Origin: an uncultured Burkholderiales bacterium
Lineage (GTDB): Bacteria; Pseudomonadota; Gammaproteobacteria; Burkholderiales; Casimicrobiaceae
Direction: 5' to 3'
Length of the DNA: 43,850 nucleotides
Assembly: GCA_937944385.1 (NCBI GenBank)
Contig: CALDYQ010000033.1
Coordinates: forward strand, 1-43,850
Shown: positions 1 to 1,315 of the stretch, one piece after another
How positions within the stretch are numbered: position 1 is the stretch's first letter
How the letters are laid out: every line of letters begins with the position of its first letter
Program-made: the position numbers and the translations under genes
The notes under the pieces: model-generated
Told to the model about the DNA's origin: nothing
The model's database searches: none
What the model saw: the letters and a program-made list of their open reading frames with translations, nothing else

Positions 1-604
1 GCGGCGAGACGAGCACATGGCTCAGCTGGTCCTGCGGTCGGCCATAGAGGCTCATGGCCGCGCCGAGCAGGTAGCCCATCGTCTTTCGGCCGCCGGCGAT
101 CGAGGCGTGCACCTCGGTGTGCGCCTCGGCAGTGAGCTGCCGCACGAACTCGGCAATCGTGCTGGCCGCGCTGTCGTTGTCGGCGTCATTGCGGATGTCG
201 TCGAGCGCGTTGCCCTGTGCGTCTTTGATCACATGGATGTGCGCTTCGTCGAATCGGATCGGCGGCAGGCTGTAGTCGCGCAGCAGCCGGGAGAACCAGC
301 CGGGCTCGGGGGAGAGGAGCCGCAGCGAGGCGTTCTGGACGCCCCGCTGCGTGGTGATCAGGTGGACTTCATCCGGAATCCATGCCGGCGTCCGCTGCGT
401 GAGGGCATAGACGGTCTCGGTGACGATCTGCGGGGACAAGCCGGTGACGCAGAGCAGGATGCGCCGGCGGAGTGTTGTGGGCGCGCTCGCTTCGGCAGCG
501 GTTCCGTCTTGCGCGCCCGTGGGCGCTGCAGCGGGGTCAGGCCGGCGCCGCACTGCGCGGCGGGCGGGCGACTGCTTTGAAGGGGACGGGGGCTTCGTGG
601 TCAT
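1..604 (-). CDS. CRISPR-associated CARF protein, NE0113/TIGR02584 (ring nuclease/Csm6-like) family, 3' part outside window
   Basis: Translating the minus strand from an ATG at 604 gives about 201 residues that stay open to the left edge. After a basic, Pro/Ala-rich extension of about 48 residues comes a Rossmann-like start, ILLCVTGLSPQIVTETVYAL, then EVHLITTQRG and later SIAGGRKTMGYLLGAAMSLYG and RPQDQLSHVLVS. These are hallmark segments of the NE0113 family, a CARF-domain group associated with type III CRISPR systems and annotated as ring nuclease/Csm6-like. Such proteins bind, and in some cases cleave, cyclic oligoadenylate messengers. The GGRKTMG segment matches the CARF ligand-site loop. 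An in-frame ATG at 619 is an alternative start; neither has a strong ribosome site. No cas gene or array is visible, so any partner would lie left of the window. The family call is strong; the activity is inferred. Confidence 0.85.
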   Translation of the reverse strand, partial: MTTKPPSPSKQSPARRAVRRRPDPAAAPTGAQDGTAAEASAPTTLRRRILLCVTGLSPQIVTETVYALTQRTPAWIPDEVHLITTQRGVQNASLRLLSPEPGWFSRLLRDYSLPPIRFDEAHIHVIKDAQGNALDDIRNDADNDSAASTIAEFVRQLTAEAHTEVHASIAGGRKTMGYLLGAAMSLYGRPQDQLSHVLVSP

Positions 605-868
605 GGCCACGCATTCCATCCCGAAAAATGGCAATGACGCGCGTTGGCAAGCTTGCGGCAAGGCTCCCGCCCCGGTGCGACTCCCGCGCTTGGATGCTTT
701 GCGTCCGAGTTGAGCGCAGCGGCTCCCCCCTTGTCGAGGCTTCCCCCTGATGCCATGGCTGCATCGGCTCTTGTCCTTTTGCGCGGCATTTTGAGGCAGG
801 TGCAGACGCTTGAAAAGTCCACAATCTTCTTGTCGGTCCCCCCATCGGTCCGCCTACACTCGGACGCG
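605..868. other. Intergenic region between the CARF gene and liuR
   Basis: These 264 bases separate the divergent CARF gene and liuR. I found no credible gene, no CRISPR repeat and no terminator. A weak candidate promoter for liuR (TTGTCG at 830-835, TACACT at 855-860, 19-base spacer) ends only 8 bases before the liuR ATG, so it would imply a nearly leaderless message. Confidence 0.5.
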
Positions 869-1315
869 ATGAAACGAAAGACCGCACCCCCCGCCGCGCG
901 CCGCGCCGAGCCCACGCCGCAGGCGCGGGCCGAGTGCTACACGATCACCGAACTCGCGCGGGAGTTCGCGCTAACTTCGCGAGCGATTCGCTTCTACGAG
1001 GACCGAGGGCTCATCGCGCCCGAGCGGCGTGGCAACCGTCGGATCTATCACGCGCGCGACCGGGTGCGGCTCAAGCTCATCTTGCGTGGCAAGCGGCTCG
1101 GGATGAGTCTCGCGGAGATTCGGGAGATCCTCGATCTGTACGATGCCGACAAAACGGAGCGGGCGCAGCTCGAGCGGTTCGTGGAGGTGCTCGCGACGCG
1201 GCGTGCGGTGCTCGAGCAGCAGCGCGAGGACATCGATGCGGTGCTGGCCGAGATCGTCGCCGTGGAGCGGGACTGCAGGCGGCGCTTGCGGGCAGTGAGC
1301 CAGCGATCGGAATGA
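869..1315 (+). CDS. liuR: MerR-family transcriptional regulator LiuR of the leucine/isovalerate catabolic operon
   Basis: This is a 148-residue MerR-type regulator. After a short basic tail, the winged helix-turn-helix begins at YTITELAREFALTSRAIRFYEDRGLI, followed by the typical RIYHARDRVRLKLILRGKRLGMSLAEI stretch and a C-terminal coiled coil from about residue 85. It lacks the cysteines of metal-sensing MerR proteins. In proteobacteria LiuR controls branched-chain amino acid degradation, probably responding to acyl-CoA intermediates. Here it lies directly upstream of liuA, and a 20-base palindrome of the LiuR type (1321-1340) sits between the two genes. The ATG at 869 is chosen because the frame upstream does not look protein-like. 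No clear ribosome site precedes it. Confidence 0.9.
   Translation: MKRKTAPPAARRAEPTPQARAECYTITELAREFALTSRAIRFYEDRGLIAPERRGNRRIYHARDRVRLKLILRGKRLGMSLAEIREILDLYDADKTERAQLERFVEVLATRRAVLEQQREDIDAVLAEIVAVERDCRRRLRAVSQRSE

Follow-up and report, generated by a model that had tools for sequence, protein, structure and literature searches.

An NE0113-family CARF gene at a contig edge as a candidate messenger-sensing activator of type III CRISPR-Cas promoters

The gene analysed here has its closest described counterparts in the NE0113 family of CARF proteins (TIGR02584, PF09623; CARF5 in PADLOC), which it resembles in sequence, CARF motifs and type III neighbourhood and from which it differs by a putative N-terminal tail of 48 codons. 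Transcription control has been predicted for NE0113, with no site named in the relevant part of that work (Makarova 2014; PMC4012209), and regulators are left for later in the corresponding part of another study (Hoikkala 2024; PMC11229360); neither a functional study of NE0113, TIGR02584 or PF09623 nor a report of the box described below was recognised in the literature searched. Csa3 has a messenger-sensing CARF domain fused to a DNA-binding winged helix and regulates transcription (PMC8844856, PMC8699464), and CalpL/T/S, as outlined in the corresponding part of PMC11229360, give a type III system a transcriptional response that the messenger triggers, similar to the role proposed here. Our main reading, to which we assign a probability of about 0.6, is that the gene at the left edge of the window (the whole stretch of 43,850 nucleotides that was analysed) encodes a transcription activator that senses the alarm molecule and acts on its own type III-B locus, which the assembly would have split between contig C33, carrying the gene, and contig C82 of the same genome.

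The window gene and its relatives

From an ATG at position 604, a minus-strand frame stays open for 201 codons and leaves the window at base 1, where C33 begins as well (from stop to stop, the frame has 284 codons as far as the contig end). The features discussed in this paper are the following.

2..604, minus strand: 5' part (201 codons) of the NE0113-family CARF gene, truncated by the contig end
5..460, minus strand: CARF domain, profile match to TIGR02584 positions 1-156 of 209
74..94, minus strand: GGRKTMG, invariant CARF motif, from sequence and alignment
461..604, minus strand: N-terminal Pro/Ala/Arg-rich tail of 48 codons, in frame, absent from the nearest relative
613..618, minus strand: -10-like hexamer TGGAAT, at +37 from the palindrome as is typical of the family, without A at +38
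647..656, no strand assigned: palindrome GCAAGCTTGC, candidate activator site; the first base of CAAGCTTG is at 655 on the minus strand, 51 bases before the ATG
869..1315, plus strand: MerR-like regulator (assigned by eye), divergent right neighbour, genus-conserved and outside the CRISPR locus

The original prediction held that this frame is an NE0113/TIGR02584 CARF protein with the GGRKTMG motif, and the profile search suggested along with it confirms this: TIGR02584 matches residues 49-200 at 195.4 bits (E 1.1e-57), the curated cut-off being 80.65 bits and the fragment covering profile positions 1-156 of 209 only. PF09623 is also matched far above its cut-off (E 7.4e-38), the PADLOC profile CARF5 gives E 4.8e-75, and GGRKTMG is unchanged in every row of a 74-row alignment that includes the window fragment. 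On these profile matches we consider membership of the known NE0113 family to be real. The ring-nuclease label that the original prediction also used is putative and goes back to a database name.

The Pro/Ala-rich N-terminal region of about 48 residues, also pointed out in the original prediction, is open in frame, yet it is not conserved in the nearest relative (locus L005, 70% identical over the common part), which starts four residues ahead of the core, and its GC content by codon position is flat (73/79/75%, vs 67/45/89% in the core). Among 79 relatives, the first possible start would give a tail of at most 30 residues in 57, of 31-47 in three and of at least 48 in 19, and in 73 the closest ATG is no more than 30 residues away from the core, all these starts being predicted ones. 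The palindromic box provides another reference point: in the 47 NE0113 genes that have box and -10, an in-frame start lies at +49 to +53 in ten and at +49 to +80 in 27, and because these distances cover the 51 bases found in the window, ATG(604) is a plausible start.

Only the CARF part of the window protein is present, its C-terminal half having been cut off by the assembly. A search with the C-terminal profile did not find this half elsewhere in the genome, returning three short matches limited to profile positions 10-55 that are probably response regulators. No overlap of the contig end with another contig was found; the two other matches are brief and of low significance (E 0.002 and 0.004), and one of them falls, in our own reading, in the CARF motif of a C82 gene.

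The structure prediction recommended with the original prediction was obtained for the complete relative L005, in an alignment with 73 further sequences, one of them the window fragment; the model (pLDDT 94.8, pTM 0.87) confidently suggests a CARF domain followed by a winged helix of what we take to be OmpR/PhoB type. Foldseek returned 19 rows at E <=0.001, comprising chains of Cad1 (the top match), Csm6, Cam1 and Csx1-Crn2, with Sso2081 at E 0.0047 and query-normalised TM-scores of CARF matches not above 0.36. Modelled alone, the C-terminal domain (pLDDT 93.1) matches BaeR (E 0.0043), OmpR, ArlR and YycF, the others at E 0.19 or worse. Its profile, searched against the PDB, retrieves 41 sequences at E <=10, all named response regulators or similar (best E 0.0012), most of the matches spanning approximately positions 13-56 of 157. 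The modelled resemblances to response regulators are consistent but weak one by one, and the profile result is the clearer of the two. With the full-length family profile, response regulators are among the top PDB matches, mixed with others; phmmer with a single sequence found no solved relative, and Pfam scans of single members matched Trans_reg_C in 2/73 (best E 0.12) and HTH_36 in 3/73 (best E 0.034). The architecture of CARF plus winged helix, by which Csa3-like proteins are recognised, is thus found in relatives only, and the winged helix of the window protein is assumed from them.

The loci of these relatives named here are the best 80 of 159 found in one scan. Their genes were grouped by clustering; the names cas6, card1, csx16, duf1874 and those of some cas10 and RAMP families derive from profile matches, the label cmr4 is backed by 38 plasmid matches of its query, nearly all annotated cmr4, and the labels cmr1, cmr3, cmr5, csm1 and csm2-5 are our own presumed assignments. 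With these labels, a cas-type gene is found near the NE0113 gene in 71 of the best 80 loci, interference genes in 58 and a cas10-type gene in 52, and cas6 directly precedes the NE0113 gene in 29. Within the class, 30 of 369 sampled genomes have NE0113 above the family cut-off. It is present in 16 of 22 Cmr1-positive genomes, a figure biased toward co-occurrence by the derivation of the Cmr1 profile from NE0113 loci, and in 8 of 9 genomes positive for Csm1 above cut-off (10 of 17 for all Csm1 matches). Plasmid members of the family (L205 14049-15359, L206 14595-15387 and L207 15800-16924) are publicly named 'ring nuclease Csm6'.

A palindromic box at fixed promoter spacing

The palindrome CAAGCTTG is found in the 300 bases upstream of 51 of 79 NE0113 genes, vs approximately 0.6 in shuffled sequence, and the next three bases on each side, usually CGG/CCG, are complementary in 41, 31 and 35 of the 51 cases (27, 18 and 27 expected). 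Across 88 loci it precedes NE0113 in 49/84, cmr1 in 24/33, csm1 in 9/14, cas6 in 15/48 and the outer cas2 in 8/15, genes with a profile match starting past position 25 having been left out of these counts. Unit-leading genes have it in 105 of 194 cases vs 4 of 198 for ten chosen internal families, a comparison in which both sets were picked after the table of counts was seen and loci were counted as independent, ignoring relatedness. Outside both sets, boxes precede k30 (4/6), k29 (3/6), duf1874 (2/6), csx16 (1/17) and k21 (1/7); none precedes the inner cas2 (0/18), the second cas1 (0/10), two further cas10 families (0/15) or seven unnamed families. Sites near cmr4 and csm3 were discarded as candidates, 19 lying within cmr3 in one frame (18 at K-L near the gene end) and three inside csm2 likewise in one frame; these were omitted from the internal-gene count because the protein sequence may explain them. 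Sites within cas6 (14, ten in one frame) and NE0113 (ten, several frames) were kept if they precede the following gene.

Within cas spans the box reaches a density of 231 per Mb, vs 28 elsewhere; for 18 control palindromes the densities are 0-29 inside and 0-33 outside. Sites of the same locus agree in flank type in 59 of 66 pairs, vs 44 expected. In a second sample the box precedes 14 of 22 NE0113 genes; this sample of 29 loci, with the gene start missed in seven, includes a duplicate of a training locus (L125, of L055), a locus having short stretches in common with another (L128, with L035) and two one-genus pairs (L132/L133 and L135/L136), and once the duplicate and one member of either pair are removed, the count is 12/19. 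Six of the eight misses have no site even at one mismatch.

Across 115 upstream sites, two positions downstream of the palindrome are conspicuous, +38 with A in 67% and +42 with T in 68%, and no -35 element is conserved between box and -10. This A/T pair is at 38/42 in 74 sites and at 39/43 in 29, one or the other in 102 of the 115, other offsets reaching at most 11; after removal of similar windows, the fixed spacing is retained in 96/109. Among later-sampled loci, 27 of 85 oriented sites have the geometry (both orientations being counted), the next best offset having ten, and of all palindromic 8-mers with -10 geometry before target genes, CAAGCTTG accounts for 96 and the next for one. A strict scan for the full promoter retrieves 95 exact copies inside cas spans and six outside in the loci; it scores no copy in the window, on C82 or in the initial 20 kb of contig C74. 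The window -10 is imperfect, and C82 has a one-mismatch copy of the box before its outer cas2, with CACCAT at +37. A genome-wide regulon in the window genome was discarded as a reading: GCAAGCTTGC occurs nine times there, close to the seven of its reversed control, and on neither strand does any of the nine copies combine A and T at 38/42 or 39/43.

The centre of the palindrome lies about 45 bases upstream of the predicted transcription start. A site so placed occupies the position typical of class II activators. The -10-like box at fixed spacing after the palindrome is, on sequence grounds, an activator geometry; a role of the palindrome as RNA hairpin was discarded, the box being upstream of the predicted start and so not in its own transcript. 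An activator-type promoter common to type III loci appears to be new, and the case for it is strong as far as sequence evidence goes.

In the mechanism that we propose, the window gene heads a type III-B CRISPR-Cas locus split by the assembly between C33 and C82. The N-terminal CARF domain would dimerise and bind cyclic oligoadenylate made by Cas10, and the C-terminal OmpR/PhoB-type winged helix of the twofold dimer would bind the palindrome CAAGCTTG. Bound in this way, the dimer would recruit RNA polymerase by class II activation at promoters having box and -10 but no conserved -35, namely those of cmr1 or csm1, of cas6, of the cas2-cas1 unit and of the regulator gene itself. On infection the messenger would rise and change the dimer, and transcription of the whole defence locus would increase. 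Extended to the family, which we consider an even bet, NE0113 proteins would be messenger-sensing class II activators in positive feedback, with Cas10 sensing viral RNA and making cyclic oligoadenylate, which would activate type III and adaptation promoters, as well as some non-cas ones, via CAAGCTTG placed 37/38 bp before the -10.

The link between protein and box was followed in genomes with and without NE0113. On plasmids (8 of 38 records examined), two of three NE0113-positive loci have geometry boxes before cas6 or other genes and all five NE0113-negative loci have none, two of the latter having one palindrome each; the sole palindrome of an NE0113-positive Aeromonas plasmid lies inside cas10, with the geometry on the antisense strand. 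Among the sampled genomes without NE0113, G068 and G332 (one genus) keep palindromes with -10 geometry, and G250 keeps the palindrome but not the geometry, these three assemblies being 97-98% complete. For genomes positive for Cmr1 or Csm1, the palindrome is present in the stretch examined in 16/24 with NE0113 vs 4/9 without, a contrast that does not decide the matter; of the four negatives with palindrome, G372 has its site without context and G176 has a sub-cut-off NE0113 match (E 7e-6). Residues of the recognition helix do not clearly track box variants; a reading of the flank type by this helix was discarded, since its R327 has the second rank among the alignment columns, yet the highest-ranking columns are not concentrated in the winged helix. 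We judge NE0113 likely to be the reader of the box.

The best surviving alternative, still an unlikely one in our estimate, is that NE0113 proteins are mainly ring nucleases or messenger sinks that degrade or buffer cyclic oligoadenylate, their winged helix aiding dimerisation only and another factor reading the box. The NCBI family name 'ring nuclease Csm6', the resemblance of the CARF fold to Csm6 and more weakly to Sso2081 (E 0.0047), and the retention of the palindrome before cmr1 in three NE0113-free genomes all speak for such a role, but 15 of 80 loci also have csx16 or duf1874 clusters, i.e. separate ring-nuclease-type genes, a DUF1874-type protein is already encoded on C82, and the box is found at the family's own promoters. 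Somewhat less probable again is repression, with the apo-protein blocking polymerase at the box until the messenger frees it: a palindromic site near the promoter core, in autoregulatory position, would suit a repressor, but its constant distance ahead of the -10 and the lack of a conserved -35 are better explained by activation than by blocking.

Several further sites were recorded. The type III-B loci L180, L181 and L182 belong to NE0113-free genomes and have the CAAGCTTG palindrome before cmr1 or cas6. Three NE0113 genomes without canonical box at the tested genes (L115, L166, L176) have CAGGCCTG at the same -10 spacing; copies so spaced lie close to cmr1 (G206, G413) or to NE0113 (G381). 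As a box variant, CAGGCCTG is suggestive only and was set aside: in the main set, none of its copies ahead of target genes passes, and L007, L010, L049 and L063, which have the normal box, contain copies at this spacing too. Geometry boxes also lie before non-cas genes of Allochromatium plasmids (L206 11909 and 13787; L207 11571, 13449 and 18807 on the minus strand), namely a hypothetical/radical-SAM unit, an EcsC-family gene and, for L207, a DUF488-containing unit; these boxed genes are candidates for new type III accessory genes. Two more (L012 1359 and L032 2370, the latter on the minus strand) precede unannotated genes outside the recognised cas span, that of L032 being GTPase-like by eye.

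Contig C82 and the genomic setting

Contig C82 of the window genome, reached by a Cas1 search, has 7,479 bases with all genes on the minus strand. It carries the end of a CRISPR array with three repeat copies, cas2, a diverged second cas1, cas1, cas2 and cas6; it also encodes a DUF1874/STIV_B116-like protein (PF08960, E 1.1e-19), probably a ring nuclease, and a CARF-adenosine deaminase that matches PADLOC CARF_ADA at E 1.3e-183 and A_deaminase at E 1.2e-36. At the right end a frame of 146 residues runs off the contig, its residues 3-47 matching the end of Cmr6 (PADLOC, E 2.6e-4). The two cas2 and two cas1 genes (L090, i.e. C82, 449-3282) form one adaptation unit, in which one cas1 best fits the PADLOC profile 'diverged variant, second in the loci'; similar sets are found again in several relatives. 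The deaminase frame overlaps that of the DUF1874-type protein (L090 4397-7118).

The window gene reads leftward off its edge, on a strand compatible with C82. The GC content of C82 is similar (67.8% vs 66.1%), and its tetranucleotide distance of 0.095 lies near the top of the spread for pieces of the window (0.052-0.099). As the simplest map, we infer the adjacency of C33 and C82, such that the start of the gene on C33 would be followed by a gap with cmr and cas10 genes and then by C82; the deaminase and the DUF1874-type protein would then probably share a locus with the window gene. The genes of this gap were not found in the assembly, the cmr6 tail excepted: a RAMP search of the window genome had no match, Cmr1 and Csm1 searches had none at 1e-10, and a search for the Cas10 palm gave two doubtful matches only, one just above cut-off. 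The latter, on C18 (29.2 bits, cut-off 27) and C54 (below it), were dismissed as probable GGDEF proteins, an E. coli control matching too. Of what had been suggested to be sought beyond the left edge, repeats and a cmr tail thus turned up on C82, and cas10, Cmr1 and Csm1 did not turn up in the assembly.

To the right, the MerR-like gene is shared by 12 of the 17 genomes that represent the genus, the window genome included, and is accompanied by an acyl-CoA dehydrogenase gene in all five regions compared; its far side differs among the five, two of which have one set in common. A search of the 16 other members of the genus found no NE0113 in any of them, in keeping with acquisition of the locus.

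The original prediction had left two options, a CRISPR locus ending at the contig edge or a stand-alone CARF protein. The type III-B part on C82 and the relatives, mostly in type III loci, favour the first. The second, a CARF protein outside any CRISPR locus, is improbable in our view: it would accord with the ordinary metabolic genes to the right, with the assembly having no RAMP, no Cmr1 or Csm1 match at 1e-10 and two doubtful palm matches, and with the nine of 80 relatives that have no cas-type gene in the stretch examined, but C82 is a broken type III-B locus of compatible orientation that ends at the cmr6 tail. Because C82 bears CRISPR repeats, cas genes and this tail on the matching strand, the window gene is probably not stand-alone.

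Significance and comparison with known systems

If the activator reading is true, the box would define a type III regulon common to many Gammaproteobacteria (the class as delimited in the genome collection). NE0113 genes are labelled nucleases in databases, and the box geometry makes switching of the locus accessible to a reporter and binding experiment. The box would also be a sequence signature for unknown co-controlled genes, for example the EcsC-family and radical-SAM genes of the Allochromatium plasmids.

A Csm6-type ribonuclease effector, which the NCBI name and the CARF similarity to Csm6 would suggest, is very improbable, since no HEPN domain is seen in the relative's model or the family profile, the C-terminal half of the relative models as a winged helix instead, and the 74-row alignment has no nearly invariant histidine past residue 153. 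With the predicted winged helix in place of a HEPN domain, the database name 'Csm6' probably misleads for the NE0113 family.

Compared with Csa3, which is tied to type I systems in the account consulted for this point (PMC9704534), NE0113 is modelled with an OmpR/PhoB-like winged helix and has its candidate sites at type III promoters. Cad1, the CARF-adenosine deaminase in the relevant part of PMC11645235, is the top CARF fold match and has a counterpart on C82, but carries a deaminase in place of the winged helix. CalpL/T/S, again as outlined in PMC11229360, operate through a protease, an anti-sigma and a sigma factor rather than a direct DNA-binding sensor. The PhoB/OmpR response regulators have a C-terminal winged-helix fold like that modelled for NE0113, which differs from them in carrying CARF instead of a receiver domain and in the palindromic nature of its putative site. 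These regulators activate transcription from positions next to the core promoter.
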